Source of the DNA: an uncultured Bacillota bacterium
GTDB taxonomy: Bacteria; Bacillota; Clostridia; Peptostreptococcales; Anaerovoracaceae
Assembly: GCA_927441425.1 (NCBI GenBank)
Contig: CAKMKG010000013.1
Span: forward strand, 62,001 to 126,000
Direction: 5' to 3'
DNA length: 64,000 nt
The position numbers and the translations under genes were made by a program. Position 1 is the first letter of the stretch; each line of letters begins with the position of its first letter. This document shows, in pieces, positions 4,138-7,985 of the stretch. The notes below the pieces were generated by a model, which saw only the letters and a program-made list of their open reading frames with translations, was not told the DNA's origin and made no database searches.

Positions 4138-4149
4138 TGCATCAGAAGC

Positions 4150-4206
4150 AAAAAATGCCGAAGCAGAAAGCCTCGGCATTTTTCTCTTGGTAACCCGTAG
4201 GGGAGT
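4150..4206 (-). repeat. Direct repeat copy 1: tRNA-Glu 3' tail plus terminator
   Basis: 57 bp identical, except for one base, to 4348-4404. On the minus strand it reads tRNA-Glu T-stem end, acceptor 3' strand and CCA, then the hairpin GCCGAGG...CTTCGGC with a T-run (a rho-independent terminator). It is a displaced duplicate of the end of the tRNA-Glu transcription unit and lies downstream of structured element A. Confidence 0.85.
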
Positions 4207-4338
4207 TTGCATCTGCTCGCTCCACTCTCAGCTGCCGCCCTGCGAGGCCTCGTTCAGGCCTCTTGGACCGCTCACTGCTTGAAAGTCCACCGGACTTTCA
4301 AGAGGCGTTCGCGCCCTTATGGGTTCGACTCCCCTGCC
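4188..4338 (-). repeat. tRNA-linked structured repeat, copy A
   Basis: Read on the minus strand after the tRNA-Glu terminator. It opens with AGGGGAGTCGAACCC, the exact reverse complement of the T-arm of the neighbouring tRNA-Glu. It carries an AAAGTCC/GGACTTT hairpin, a GAGGCCT/AGGCCTC-type hairpin and GGGCGGCAGCTG, and closes with a copy of the tRNA-Glu tail. The opening AGGGGAGT (4328-4335) pairs with the closing ACTCCCCT (4199-4206). It shares its layout and conserved blocks with copies B and C after tRNA-Ser. No protein-coding content is credible. Confidence 0.75.
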
Positions 4339-4347
4339 ATCAAAAAC

Positions 4348-4404
4348 AAAAAATGCCAAAGCAGAAAGCCTCGGCATTTTTCTCTTGGTAACCCGTAGGG
4401 GAGT
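4348..4404 (-). repeat. Direct repeat copy 2: genuine tRNA-Glu tail and terminator
   Basis: Original member of the 57-bp direct repeat whose duplicate lies at 4150-4206. Here the tail belongs to the intact tRNA-Glu gene, and the hairpin GCCGAGG...TTTGGC followed by T residues is its terminator. The single mismatch lies in the terminator stem. Confidence 0.85.
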
Positions 4405-4460
4405 CGAACCCCTGACTCCGCCGTGAGAGGGCGACGTCTTGACCACTTGACCAACGGGTC
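4386..4460 (-). tRNA. tRNA-Glu (anticodon CTC)
   Basis: 75-nt cloverleaf on the minus strand with encoded CCA. The acceptor stem is GACCCGT/ACGGGTT with one G-T pair. The anticodon stem-loop has loop CTCTCAC, giving anticodon CTC for GAG codons, and the T-arm is GGGTTCGACTCCC. It is followed by its own terminator and then by structured repeat copy A. Confidence 0.93.
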
Positions 4461-4630
4461 TCACAGTTATTAATGATACTTTAAAAAGCTGAAAAAAGCA
4501 ACTGTTTTTTGTCCGTTTGCCTTGTAAAATTCGAATATATTTGATAAAATCTAATATTAATCATGGGTAATACTACGGGATACATCCCGGGTTTGAATAG
4601 TACAGTTTAGTTCGGAAAGGGAGATGGCAA

Positions 4631-6106
4631 ATGAAATATAGAAGTACAAGAGGTAGTAAGGACACAAAGAACGCGGCGCAGGCGGTGATTCAGGGAATCG
4701 CTCAGGATAAGGGCCTTTTCGTCCCGGAAAGCATTCCGCAGTTGCCGTTTGCCTTGGAAGATATGAAAGAAAAAACATATCAGGAGATTGCATTTGATGT
4801 GATTCGTAGCTTTTTTACAGATTACACAGAGGCTGAGCTTCAGGAATGTGTGAATGGTGCTTATGATAAAAAATTTGAGGCAGCAGACATCGTTCCGATG
4901 GTTAAAGCCGGTGATGTGTATTTTCTAGAGCTTTATCATGGCAAAACCGCGGCTTTCAAGGATATGGCCTTATCGATTCTGCCGTACCTGATGACAACAG
5001 CAATGAAAAAGGAAAAGGAAGATAAGAAAATTGTCATACTGACAGCAACGTCAGGAGATACCGGCAAAGCTGCACTGGAAGGGTTTACAGATGTGCCGAA
5101 TACAGAGATCATTGTTTTTTATCCCAATGAGGGAGTCAGCCAGGTCCAGGAAAGACAGATGACTACGCAGGAAGGTGAAAACACCCATGTGTTTGCTATC
5201 CGCGGGAATTTCGACGACGCCCAGACTGGGGTGAAGAAAATTTTCAATGACAGTGATTTTGCAGAGGAGCTGGCAAAGCTTGGCTGCAAGCTTTCCTCGG
5301 CGAATTCCATTAATATCGGAAGACTGATTCCCCAAGTGGCTTATTATGTGTATGCCTATGCTAAGCTGCTGGAGAAGGGTGCAATCGGAATTGGGGACAA
5401 GATCAATATCGTGGTACCTACGGGGAATTTTGGGAATATACTTGCGGCATATTATGCCAAAGAAATGGGCATTCCCGTAGGAAAGCTAATTTGCGCATCC
5501 AATGAAAACAAGGTACTGACGGATTTTATCAATACCGGAATTTATGATGTGAAAAGGGATTTCTATCTGACAAACTCCCCCTCCATGGACATCTTGATTT
5601 CCAGCAATCTAGAAAGGCTTTTGTATCATCTGAGCGGTGACAACGGTGCTGAAATCGCAGCATTGATGGAAAGTCTGGAGAAGAATAAGCAATATGAAGT
5701 AAATGACAGTATGAAAAAGGGTCTTTCGGAATTTTGGGCATGTTATGCAAATATGGACGAAACCAACGCAGCCATCGGGAGAATGTATCGCGAAAATGGT
5801 TATCTCATGGATACCCATACTGCAGTTGGATATAAGGTTTATGAGGATTACCGCAACGAAACGGGAGACCAGACGGTAACAGTGATCGCATCTACTGCCA
5901 GCGCATATAAATTTGCGGACAGCGTGGCTGCTTCCATTGGTCTGGATATTGAGCAGGACGGCTTTGTCAATGTGCGTGCACTGCATGAGAAAACAGGGGT
6001 TAAAATCCCTGCCGGATTAAAAGGTCTGGAAACAAAAAAAATCAGGCACAAGGAAGTGCTTGATAAAGAAGATCTAAAAGCAGCAGTTAGGGATGCATTG
6101 AAATAA
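4631..6106 (+). CDS. thrC: Threonine synthase
   Basis: PLP enzyme of 491 residues converting O-phosphohomoserine to threonine. The N-terminal segment KYRSTRGSKDTKNAA is typical of the longer (yeast/E. coli-like) threonine synthase class. Lys110 in HGKTAAFKDMALS is the Schiff-base lysine, and TATSGDTGKAALEGF and VPTGNFGNILAAYYA contact phosphate and cofactor. Length fits the family. The start has AAGGGAG 9 bases upstream. A small hairpin CGGGA/TCCCG sits in the 5' region near 4575-4590; I see no T-box or riboswitch. It is probably transcribed alone. Confidence 0.94.
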   Translation: MKYRSTRGSKDTKNAAQAVIQGIAQDKGLFVPESIPQLPFALEDMKEKTYQEIAFDVIRSFFTDYTEAELQECVNGAYDKKFEAADIVPMVKAGDVYFLELYHGKTAAFKDMALSILPYLMTTAMKKEKEDKKIVILTATSGDTGKAALEGFTDVPNTEIIVFYPNEGVSQVQERQMTTQEGENTHVFAIRGNFDDAQTGVKKIFNDSDFAEELAKLGCKLSSANSINIGRLIPQVAYYVYAYAKLLEKGAIGIGDKINIVVPTGNFGNILAAYYAKEMGIPVGKLICASNENKVLTDFINTGIYDVKRDFYLTNSPSMDILISSNLERLLYHLSGDNGAEIAALMESLEKNKQYEVNDSMKKGLSEFWACYANMDETNAAIGRMYRENGYLMDTHTAVGYKVYEDYRNETGDQTVTVIASTASAYKFADSVAASIGLDIEQDGFVNVRALHEKTGVKIPAGLKGLETKKIRHKEVLDKEDLKAAVRDALK

Positions 6107-6146
6107 CGGAAAAACGAACTCGATTTTCTTTGATACGGGAAACCAT

Positions 6147-7256
6147 TTAATGCGGATAGACTACGGTCTGCCCTTTGCCATTCTCTTTCGCTTGGTAGAG
6201 AGCAGAATCTGCTTGATGGAACAGAAGGTTTTCATTCATATCCCCCTCCATATAGTAGGAAATCCCTGCGCTAAAGCTTATTTGACCGGATCTTATTATC
6301 GATCGAGGGATTTGTCTACATCTCTGTCGCAGTGTTTCCAGCCTCAAATAAGCGAGCTCTTTGGAGGCTTCAGGGTAAATAACGGCAAATTCGTCTCCGC
6401 CGTAGCGGGAAACATAGGCTTCTCCATCGTTACACTGCTGTTTGATCAGATTGGTAAATTGGAGCAAAACCTGATCCCCCTCCAGATGGCCAAAGTTATC
6501 GTTGATATCTTTAAAATCATCCAGATCAATAATTGCAAGGGACATGGGTGTCTTATGGTGCTTTGCCTTTTCCATTGTACTTTTTAATAGAGATTGGAAG
6601 GTCTTCTGATTATACAGACCTGTCAGGGAATCATTTCGGGCCTCCTCTTTCAGAGAGAGTTGGGCTTGATAGCTCGTATAGACATAATCACTGTTCGCTT
6701 TATTATACGCGATCAAAACAGTACTCAGAAGATAAGCCGTGAGCAGCAGCGTTATGGCGACGGCTGCATTCAAATAGAAATAGACCGAGTCATGGTTATA
6801 CATTGCAGAATGTATTGTTGAAAAAATAAGCAGAATACAATTGATGATGGTGATGACACCTGTCATCCTCTTTTGACCAAACAGTATGGTAATAAAAATT
6901 GGGATTGTGAAGATTGTCAGGATCGCACCGACAACACAATGGATATAGGCCATTACAGCGGCCATTAAGGAAGCGGTTATCAATAGGGAGTAGTTTTTTA
7001 TTTGAACCTTGATGTTCATTGCATTGACTCGATGACAAAGAATCACCAAGACAGCATTGATTGCGGTAGGCGTAATAATAAAACTGATTATGTACTGAAA
7101 GTCATGGGGAACCTCTTCGTTCAACAGACCACGATTTCGAAAAGCAATAAAAACAATAACTTCTACCGTAAAAATCAATGCAACAATTACGTAGAAGACT
7201 CTGATGATCTTTTCTCTCCAATGATCAAAGGACAAATTAGGCTTCGTAATTTCCAT
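6147..7256 (-). CDS. Membrane diguanylate cyclase (GGDEF)
   Basis: 369 residues. The N-terminal half has about six hydrophobic helices forming an MHYT/5TM-like membrane sensor. A linker coiled segment (about residues 190-210) leads to a GGDEF domain (about 210-365). The active-site loop RYGGDEFAVIYPE is intact, and the preceding IDLDDFKDINDNFGHLEGD motif binds Mg/GTP, so c-di-GMP synthesis is expected. No clear RxxD inhibitory site was checked beyond the loop. An AGGAGGT site lies 12 bases from the ATG. The gene is convergent with thrC and stands alone. Confidence 0.9.
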   Translation of the reverse strand: MEITKPNLSFDHWREKIIRVFYVIVALIFTVEVIVFIAFRNRGLLNEEVPHDFQYIISFIITPTAINAVLVILCHRVNAMNIKVQIKNYSLLITASLMAAVMAYIHCVVGAILTIFTIPIFITILFGQKRMTGVITIINCILLIFSTIHSAMYNHDSVYFYLNAAVAITLLLTAYLLSTVLIAYNKANSDYVYTSYQAQLSLKEEARNDSLTGLYNQKTFQSLLKSTMEKAKHHKTPMSLAIIDLDDFKDINDNFGHLEGDQVLLQFTNLIKQQCNDGEAYVSRYGGDEFAVIYPEASKELAYLRLETLRQRCRQIPRSIIRSGQISFSAGISYYMEGDMNENLLFHQADSALYQAKENGKGQTVVYPH

Positions 7257-7379
7257 AAAACAGCAAAGACCTCCTGTCGGGACAATTATACTTCAAAATT
7301 TTACAAGATTCAAACTGTTTATGGCTAAAAATTCAATTAATTCCGTAATTTGATTGCAAATAATTATTTATGCAAGGAC

Positions 7380-7408
7380 TTGCTTTTTCAATGAATATAT
7401 GTTAAATT
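7380..7408 (+). promoter_or_regulatory. Likely sigma-A promoter of tRNA-Ser
   Basis: TTGCTT (7380-7385), a 17-nt spacer and TAAATT (7403-7408) lie about 35 bases before the tRNA. Spacing is ideal; the -10 box is a moderate match. Confidence 0.5.
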
Positions 7409-7442
7409 ATTAGATGTGTCTTAACAGAGGTACACTTGAATT

Positions 7443-7530
7443 GGAGAGTTGACCGAGTGGCTAAGGAGCTCGCCTGGAAAGCGAGTAAGGTGTTAAAGCC
7501 CCGTGGGTTCGAGTCCCATGCTCTCCGCCA
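7443..7530 (+). tRNA. tRNA-Ser (anticodon GGA)
   Basis: 88-nt class II tRNA with a long variable arm (TAAGGTGTTAAAGCCCCG region) and encoded CCA. The acceptor is GGAGAGT with ACTCTCC-type pairing GCTCTCC. The anticodon stem CTCGC/GCGAG has loop CTGGAAA, giving GGA for UCC/UCU codons. Confidence 0.94.
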
Positions 7531-7531
7531 A

Positions 7532-7575
7532 TAAAACAAAAGACGAGGATTCATGCCTCGTCTTTTGTTTTATTT
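7532..7575 (+). terminator. Terminator of tRNA-Ser
   Basis: Long perfect stem AAAACAAAAGACGAGG / CCTCGTCTTTTGTTTT with a short loop followed by ATTTTTG, starting two bases after the CCA. Confidence 0.85.
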
Positions 7576-7583
7576 TTGTTCAG

Positions 7584-7734
7584 AAGCATGGGACGAGAAC
7601 CCGAAAGGGCATCAAGCGTTTGAACGGCAAAGAAAAACAGCATGCTATGCTGTTTTTAGCTTGATGGGCCGAGCCACGTGAGATGGCGAAGGACGGCAGC
7701 TGCGACCAGAGGAGCAGATGTAAAGTCCCATGCT
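7584..7734 (+). repeat. tRNA-linked structured repeat, copy B
   Basis: Lies just after the tRNA-Ser terminator. It opens with AGCATGGGACGAGAACCC, the reverse complement of the tRNA-Ser T-arm and tail apart from a CGAG/CTCG flip, and closes with GTCCCATGCT, a copy of the tRNA-Ser tail. These ends pair perfectly over 10 bp. Inside are ACCCGAAAGGG (hairpin), AACAGCATGCTATGCTGTT (hairpin), CGAAGGACGGCAGCTG and GGAGCAGATG. The same order of blocks occurs in copies A and C. Confidence 0.75.
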
Positions 7735-7749
7735 CAATCATCACTGGAT

Positions 7750-7985
7750 GATTGGGGACGAGAACCCGAAAGGGCGCGAACGTCGGGAGAAAGTCCCAGC
7801 GGACTTTAGAACAGAGAGCGGTCCAAGATGCCTGAATGAGGCATCGCAGGACGGCAGAACGGAAGAATTCCTATCCAGCTAAAGCTGGGGAATTCCCGTA
7901 TGGCACCTACCGGACATTTGCTGCGCACATGTGGTTAGGTGCGCATGAGACCATAGGGAGCAGCTGCAAAGTCCCATGCGCAATC
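7750..7985 (+). repeat. tRNA-linked structured repeat, copy C (with extra stem insert)
   Basis: Starts 15 bases after copy B with GATTGGGGACGAGAACCC and ends GTCCCATGCGCAATC. The outer GATTG/CAATC and inner GGGAC/GTCCC segments pair. It shares GAGAACCCGAAAGGGC, GAGCGGTCCAAGA, a GATGCCT/AGGCATC hairpin and AGGACGGCAG with copies A and B. Between that block and GGGAGCAGCTGCAAA it carries about 90 extra bases that fold as GGAATTC-type and GGTGC/GCACC-type stems. A short inverted repeat CAATCATC/GATGATTG joins B to C. Confidence 0.72.

Follow-up and report, generated by a model that had tools for sequence, protein, structure and literature searches.

Folded recombination sites, gene-less repeats mobilised by enzymes encoded elsewhere, and insertions that leave a target gene undisrupted have each been described, and it is with such systems that we compare here a family of short elements lying behind tRNA genes. 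Three copies of the family, A behind a tRNA-Glu gene and B and C behind a tRNA-Ser gene, occur in a stretch of 64,000 nucleotides (hereafter the window) from an uncultured Bacillota bacterium of the family Anaerovoracaceae (assembly GCA_927441425.1, contig CAKMKG010000013.1, positions 62,001 to 126,000 of the forward strand). In filamentous phages of the CTX type, a single strand of attP folds to mimic the host site, which is dif, and the element is the phage genome itself. MITE- and REP-like repeats are short, gene-less, multicopy and mobilised in trans, whereas the present elements sit at tRNA 3' ends or at scars of such ends, and their own ends follow each tRNA. The attC sites of integrons are imperfect hairpins with R and L box motifs, in contrast to the multi-branched junction into which the present elements fold.

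Integron cassettes are mobile, end in a structured site that is recognised as a folded single strand, and form arrays (PMC3053210; PMC6393395). The family resembles them in its arrays, and would do so in its proposed folded site, but its anchor is the T-arm of a tRNA gene instead of attI, most of its units carry no gene, and the integrase that integrons bring with them (TIGR02249) was found above the curated cut-off in none of 31 genomes. In integrative and mobilizable elements (IMEs) and cis-mobilizable elements (CIMEs), one direct repeat is the end of the target gene, which is left undisrupted, and accretion produces tandems (PMC5704250). Here too the direct repeats are the tRNA 3' end and the insert restores the tRNA, but the units are about 200 bp long, lack an integrase or any other gene, possess a conserved folded core, and have ends that match the T-arm in inverted orientation. 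Neither of the features by which a CIME or IME is recognised, an integrase or the att sites of a known parent, was found, no systematic search for parent elements having been made. The strand-biased circularizing integrative elements (SEs) of Vibrio belong to the tyrosine-recombinase elements and convert one particular strand into a circle. Recombinase genes form part of them (SE-6945 has a length of 7.1 kb), no empty site is left behind, and the abstract states no link to tRNA genes (PMC9345347). They are strand-specific, as is proposed below for the present family, and differ from it in carrying recombinase genes. Nothing like the family appeared in the titles and abstract openings of the searched literature, which held few subscription papers and no bioRxiv preprints. 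The family is so far unnamed and has the appearance of a novel, minimal type of site-specific mobile DNA.

Gain or loss of whole units at a tRNA gene is observed between two close relatives, denoted here by our genome numbers G311 and G312. At tRNA-Gly(ccc) the site is empty in G311, where the tRNA is directly followed by its own terminator, and filled in G312, where the same tRNA up to its CCA is followed by a different terminator, an arm, a core and a second tail, and then by the terminator and flank of G311. The unit measures 200 bp from T-loop to T-loop, and identity between the two loci is 90.8% over 732 bp downstream and 88.3% over 700 bp upstream. A second, partly deleted pair was found at tRNA-Arg(acg), again empty in G311 and filled in G312 (flank identity 89.7% over 1219 bp); in the latter, what is left of the native terminator is found on the far side of the inserted units, and both terminators closer to the tRNA are foreign. 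Since the native terminator is distal and the proximal one foreign, it is the insert that contributes the intact tRNA end, and the end displaced by it is native. An earlier interpretation of this DNA (the sequence-only reading) had each element closing with the tail of its own tRNA, which is better reversed: the distal tail is the native end, and it was the insert that completed the upstream tRNA. The same interpretation suggested a functional or mobile tRNA-parasitic RNA; that the element is or was mobile agrees with the G311/G312 pairs, whereas its RNA nature finds no support in the few G-U pairs reported below. Simple tandem duplication as the whole story was discarded, because the clean pair has a foreign proximal and a native distal terminator. 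Insertion behind the native terminator is contradicted at both the tRNA-Gly and the tRNA-Arg locus, although one element of genome G520 (see below) fits it better. At another tRNA-Gly locus, two units are present in G008 and one truncated unit in G006, with flanks 96% identical, and in a conserved cluster the Thr and Tyr tRNAs lie 3-81 nt apart in the eight rows that lack a listed element, as compared with 91-315 nt in the four that have one. A third empty/filled pair was sought by a flank search at tRNA-Met, which returned no partner.

The ends of the elements follow the tRNA behind which they lie. Each complete copy begins with a 5' arm that pairs with the terminal tail (helix P1), followed by a hairpin (P2) and a folded core (P3-P5). 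The tRNA neighbourhood was surveyed in 84 of 87 covariance-model matches, three below 13 bits having been dropped, and arm and tail were tested in the 48 of these 84 hits with a tRNA 5-60 nt upstream. The 17-nt arm stretch matched the reverse complement of its own tRNA at 14.4 positions, as compared with 11.5 for permuted neighbours (the largest value among 200 permutations being 12.1). When set against other isotypes, the own tRNA was best or tied in 39 of the 48 arms (strictly best in 25) and in 40 of the 48 tails. The most telling part of this matching is the P2 hairpin, read from the alignment in 78 of 103 rows after exclusion of 23 without a tRNA within 600 nt and of two identical rows. 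Its 3' strand equals bases 51-53 of the host T-stem in 76 of 78 copies, including all 20 whose T-stem at that position is not GGG, and in 69 of 78 the 5' strand complements it exactly; where the 5' strand departs, in nine copies, the 3' strand still follows the tRNA (9/9). The boundary of the units was tested in 98 of 166 hits, those whose tRNA lies 5-75 nt upstream. In 80 of them, tRNA and tail share an identical stretch of 8 nt or more, which starts at tRNA base 58 in 61 elements and within bases 57-59 in 75; its far end falls short of the tRNA 3' end in 25, coincides with it in 20 and lies past it in 35. The covariation of the element with its host tRNA that had been perceived in the window is supported across the family by the arm (14.4 versus 11.5), by P2 (76/78) and by the boundary at base 58. 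Over 82 rows, cognate matching was assessed by eye only.

The fold itself is conserved. Over 103 aligned copies (100 distinct), standard pairs fill 93.3% of the pair cells, two-sided changes occur at 34 of 35 pairs, and the covariation score is 0.515 (shuffles, 0.169; slid controls, no higher than 0.108), figures favoured by an alignment that was fitted to the structure we had ourselves proposed. The compensating base changes anticipated from the three window copies are thus present at 34 of the 35 pairs. Mismatches are strongly asymmetric, with 124 G-A or A-G cells and 14 C-T or T-C cells, an excess which indicates that the tRNA-sense strand is the folded one. G-T pairs fill 82 of 3340 cells (2.5%) and A-C pairs 46. 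When the same pipeline was applied to RNase P RNA of 24 clade genomes, G-T made up 10.4% and A-C 1.5%, versus 3.4-3.6% and 1.4-3.2%, respectively, in two subsets of the family. G-T pairs amount to 5.1% in the terminators of the tRNAs, and to 8.0% in the tRNAs of the same loci, whose pairs are pre-accepted by ARAGORN, with A-C at zero by construction; single-sequence folds of the elements contain 4.3%, against 11.9% when shuffled. In a control in which the opposite strand was folded, G-T also exceeded A-C (13.1% versus 4.4% in RNase P, 5.6% versus 4.3% in the elements), so that the G-T to A-C ratio alone cannot name the strand. The G-A to C-T asymmetry does: in the same subset, G-A and C-T stand at 4.5% and 0.7% on the sense strand and at 1.4% and 5.9% on the opposite one. 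The rarity of G-U pairs suggests a folded single-stranded DNA site instead of an RNA gene, and is the pattern expected if selection acts on folded DNA.

Taken together, we favour, with a probability of roughly 0.6, an integrative unit without genes that restores the tRNA it enters, has a folded attachment site and depends on a recombinase from elsewhere. A unit of about 150-250 bp would begin with the 3' part of the tRNA (T-loop base 57/58 to CCA) and continue, usually via a terminator, to the 5' arm and the folded core. Site-specific recombination would place it into the T-loop or 3' end of a tRNA gene, where it would provide a new tail and usually a terminator; the tRNA would remain whole, the native tail and terminator would be displaced to the far side, free to decay, and repeated insertion at one tRNA would generate a tandem array. 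The block of arm and core would be the unit's own recombination site. In the folded single strand, arm and tail (P1) may rebuild the right half of the T-arm and P2 the left half, the arm strand being an antisense T-arm whose T-loop segment varies in some copies, and the core (P3-P5) looping out from the opposing strand at the T-loop. In the linear unit, the left half of the T-arm would not be adjacent to the junction. Such a site would act as a folded single-stranded attachment site, like integron attC or filamentous-phage attP, and the recombinase would presumably come from tyrosine-integrase elements using the same tRNA sites. On this proposal, the arm would cross the T-loop because the folded strand rebuilds the T-arm, P2 would follow T-stem bases 51-53 because it supplies the left half, decayed tails such as those of B and C would keep the P1 stretch because P1 is needed in the folded site, and the fold would behave like DNA because the site works as folded single-stranded DNA. 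The data show the precise gain or loss of units in one clean and one partly deleted pair, the repeat boundary at bases 57-59, ends that match the tRNA, a conserved fold and arrays, while the folded single-strand step, the action of a recombinase in trans and current activity are inferred.

Several observations weigh against this interpretation. The covariation figures draw on the fitted alignment mentioned above, and copy A, folded as DNA, beats its shuffles on both strands (z of -4.0 for the sense and -3.3 for the opposite strand), so that it is the mismatch counts on which the one-strand claim depends. A very stable RNA could likewise have few G-U pairs, and the multi-branched junction is unlike attC. 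The exact tail block is missing in 18 of the 98 elements of the boundary test, several of them truncated copies, and several copies have CGAGAA in place of the T-loop complement. In G520, an element with a Leu-type arm and tail lies behind an intact tRNA-Arg(tct), and its Leu-type tail has no other exact copy in that genome; insertion into the T-loop alone does not account for this element. The comparison of G311 and G312 cannot distinguish gain from loss of a unit, the empty/filled pairs comprise a single clean one and one partly deleted, and many copies occupy the same tRNA in related species, as under vertical descent. No circle or excision junction is among the evidence. Finally, the integron integrase scored above its cut-off in none of the 31 genomes, and no Pfam family, among the first 25 of 151 listed, recurs in more than three of 94 neighbour proteins (93 of 148 open reading frames plus one more).

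A rival explanation is a structured non-coding RNA, made when transcription of the tRNA continues past its terminator. The arm of this RNA would pair with the T-arm of the cognate tRNA or of the tRNA precursor and tune the folding or 3' processing of the tRNA, and the tail would be its closing helix. The strong and conserved multi-branched fold, the GNRA-like P2 loops seen in many rows, the tandem G-A positions, an arm antisense to the cognate T-arm and the location of the nearest upstream tRNA, on the element's own strand in each of the 62 hits that have one, fit such an RNA. However, G-U pairs stand at 2.5-3.6%, against 10.4% in RNase P RNA, the elements start a few bases past the terminator, the inserted unit replaces the proximal terminator, which is the mark of an integrative element, and the arm variant CGAGAACCC disrupts the T-loop complement in several copies; we consider this explanation unlikely. 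An RNA that moves, ending in the tRNA 3' end with CCA, reverse transcribed and recombined into tRNA 3' ends, would agree with the repeat reaching the tRNA 3' end or further in 55 of 80 elements, and with the arm, core and tail of the G520 element, which look moved as one. The few G-U pairs speak against it, as does the want of a shared neighbour family (no search for reverse transcriptases was made), and it seems to us very improbable.

Instead of an independent family, the elements might be CIME-like remnants, i.e. att sites of ordinary tRNA-integrated elements which lost all their genes and were kept only through recombination between tRNA repeats. Larger elements use the same kinds of tRNA, which counts in favour of this origin, as do the partial tRNA ends of other insertions that adjoin the units and the Phage_integrase protein (E 3.4e-30) lying between two of them; CIMEs, moreover, are a known product of decay (PMC5704250). 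Against such an origin, the fold, about 130 nt long and common to 100 distinct copies that show compensatory changes, looks maintained, the units are similar in size, and no full-length relative with the core at its end turned up, no systematic search having been made; remnants are thus also an unlikely source, to be placed behind the non-coding RNA. The least credible candidate, in our judgement, is a guide RNA of the TnpB/IscB type, with the tRNA tail as a guide for homing into tRNA genes behind the T-loop TTCGA. A structured block does abut sequence identical to the target, and a conserved TTCGA-like T-loop lies immediately upstream of that target. But the supposed guide is paired with the 5' arm in full copies, a match of P2 to the T-stem is needless for a guide RNA, the pairing is DNA-like, and none of the first 25 of 151 listed families occurs in more than three of the 94 neighbours, no search aimed at TnpB or IscB having been made.

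The three copies reported from the window by the sequence-only reading were recovered at 4207-4337 on the minus strand (A), at about 7582-7733 (B) and at about 7747-7984 (C). Their host genes are tRNA-Glu(ctc) at 4386-4460 on the minus strand (ARAGORN; Rfam RF00005) and tRNA-Ser(gga) at 7443-7530 on the plus strand (ARAGORN). Copy A is bracketed by a 67-nt direct repeat, 96% identical, which spans T-loop, CCA and terminator. One repeat copy (4338-4404, minus) is the proximal tail block of the unit, i.e. tRNA-Glu from T-loop base 58 through CCA plus terminator; the other (4140-4206, minus) is the distal tail, a further copy of the tRNA-Glu 3' end and terminator, and the unit measures 198 bp from T-loop to T-loop. 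Between them, element A (4207-4337, minus; model match 4196-4334) consists of the 5' arm antisense to the tRNA-Glu T-arm, the P2 hairpin and the folded core P3-P5. B and C form a tandem array behind tRNA-Ser, on the plus strand. Unit B (7512-7723; model match 7589-7734) contains the 3' part of tRNA-Ser from base 58, the CCA end, a terminator hairpin (about 7530-7574), the arm, P2 (7600-7602/7607-7609) and the core, with arm positions 7586-7594 pairing with 7725-7733; in the tail behind it (7724-7735), 12 nt equal tRNA-Ser from base 58 and the sequence diverges thereafter. Unit C, the second member (7724-7969; model match 7754-7980), comprises this decayed tail, a hairpin spacer, an arm (7755-7759, pairing with 7971-7975) and a core split by a nested repeat, and is followed by a distal tail of which 10 nt equal tRNA-Ser from base 58 (7970-7979). 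The nested repeat (87 nt, 7857-7943, plus strand) belongs to another family and, although inside C, does not count as part of the element. It recurs at nine further places in the genome of the window, one of which (L004) is immediately upstream of what we take to be a CTP-synthase-like gene.

The arm of A contains the exact reverse complement of the tRNA-Glu T-arm, as had been claimed, and the near-exact match ascribed to B is likewise correct, B and C having GACGAGAACCC where a perfect complement would be GACTCGAACCC. The core described as shared is so in part: GAACCC-NNNN-GGGC and G-G-A/G-C-GGCAG are common to A, B and C, while the other motifs occur in two copies each, GCGGTCCAAGA in A and C only, AGGACGGCAG in B and C (with AGGGCGGCAG in A), and GAGCAGATG in A and B (with GAGCAGCTG in C). 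Folded as RNA and compared with shuffled sequence, the copies gave z-scores of -4.3 (A), -4.5 (B) and -5.2 (C), well beyond what chance would give.

Beyond the window, 62 of the 84 surveyed hits have a tRNA within 1.5 kb upstream, the nearest being on the same strand in all 62, and the host tRNAs are those for Glu, Thr, Arg, Lys, Leu, Ala, Ser, Gly, Pro and Met. Most commonly, the element begins a few bases past the terminator of the tRNA, the usual gap from the tRNA being 42-60 nt behind a terminator or 14-20 nt within tRNA clusters. These 62 agree with the expectation that most hits would lie near tRNA genes. The case that the sequence-only reading named as refuting it, a hit lacking a tRNA neighbour, does occur, 22 hits having no tRNA within that distance. 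Among the 19 of these 22 that were inspected, five are distal members of arrays and eight follow a partial tRNA 3' end that itself follows unrelated DNA (clear in 8 of 14 rows lacking a tRNA: L099, L110, L114, L117, L120, L088, L090 and L133). We read these partial ends as scars of other elements inserted into tRNA genes. Tandem arrays of two to five units are common. At one locus (L026, 4411-4590, G000:C49), the 5' part of a tRNA-Lys is joined in the T-loop straight to the core of an element; tail, terminator, arm and P2 are all missing, as though recombination had removed the beginning of the unit. At two different sites of G281 (L325 and L328), identical sequence follows cut-off tails, which another repeat seems to have entered. 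Behind the first tRNA-Arg(cct) unit at L092 and L093, an inverted, decayed piece of that tRNA, recognised by eye and extending past the T-arm, seems to follow the terminator of the tail.

The distribution of the family was examined with two covariance models. The first was based on a hand-drawn structure and on nine copies, full or partial, from the genome of the window. At E <= 1 it matched that genome 15 times, with E below 1e-6 in 13 cases (best E 6.5e-41, the window copies being themselves among those used for model building), and at E <= 0.01 it matched 21 of 61 genomes, the window's own included. A second model, built from 103 copies, matched 60 of 297 genomes of the order at E <= 1e-5, 56 of these 60 belonging to the window's own family, and 7 of 398 genomes drawn from the phylum at E <= 1e-3, namely the window's own, a weak match within its family (G012) and five from other families. 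The 61-, 297- and 398-genome searches used stricter filters, at the cost of weak matches, and the latter two sets were even draws from larger groups. The covariance search that the three copies had called for thus traced the family well beyond the window. All matches examined in the five genomes of other families lie directly behind a tRNA, with an arm antisense to a T-arm and a terminal tRNA tail. Named carriers, which include Emergencia timonensis, Sinanaerobacter chloroacetimidivorans and Anaerovorax, point to Anaerovoracaceae / Clostridiales Family XIII. At three loci of another class (L304, L306 and L307 in G524), more diverged cores occur in the same layout of arm and tail, which suggests that the family extends beyond the reach of the present models.

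Of the 64 pattern stretches in genome contigs, 60 were put to the model, the other four being loci already in the set. Those of Proteobacteria, Actinobacteria and other distant groups gave no model match at E <= 0.1 except for one in Microbacterium, which is weak (17.8 bits, E 0.0055) and is not counted as a family member. A viral origin was discarded, as none of five pattern hits in viral contigs was matched by the model at E <= 0.1; by blastn at E 1e-5, copies B and C together had no match in phages, and copy A had none in plasmids. An Rfam search of the window returned above gathering score only the two tRNAs; other matches at E up to 5 were all under their gathering scores, and group I and group II intron models were absent among the 15 matches at that level. 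No Rfam family thus reaches its gathering score on the element, in agreement with the earlier impression that no named family shows this pattern.

The minimal units of about 200 bp are too small to encode an integrase. Weaker matches to TIGR02249 were found in 30 of the 31 genomes, and likewise in 14 of 14 control genomes. Between two tRNA-Lys units of G281 (L317, 2983-8192) lie a tyrosine integrase (Phage_integrase, PF00589, with the E-value given above) and an AAA_25 ATPase, in a stretch whose right border seems to fall inside the arm of the second unit; this integrase was not retained as the enzyme of the family, being present at that single locus. Tyrosine-integrase elements appear to use the same tRNAs. 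Several array gaps contain genes (Radical SAM, WYL regulator, Rce1-like, NYN, SLFN_AlbA_2 and AbiEii), which were rejected as true cassettes since they occur in both orientations and beside scars of other insertions. Between two tRNA-Ala(ggc) units of G283 (L316, 4419-5848), the gene of an AbiEii toxin (PF08843, E 5.1e-39), together with the neighbour upstream of it, is candidate phage-defence cargo.

To our knowledge, this would be the smallest known family of tRNA-targeting integrative elements. A more far-reaching interpretation, which we put forward tentatively and hold to be less probable than the unit itself, is that of a new integron-like system in Bacillota, in which tiny cassettes anchored at tRNA genes would recombine through a folded single-stranded site, by means of a recombinase acting in trans at base 57/58, with the match between site and tRNA serving as an addressing code. 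The arm, hairpin and tail of the cassette would together reconstitute the T-arm of its target, and the tRNA end that it brings, usually with a terminator, would keep the tRNA alive. For genome annotation, repeated tRNA ends and scars could pass for duplicated tRNAs or prophage borders. Since the tRNA that a unit can enter is predicted from the sequence of its ends, the way in which integrases find and share tRNA targets becomes testable. If the folded-strand interpretation is true, the family would represent integron-like single-strand recombination outside integrons.

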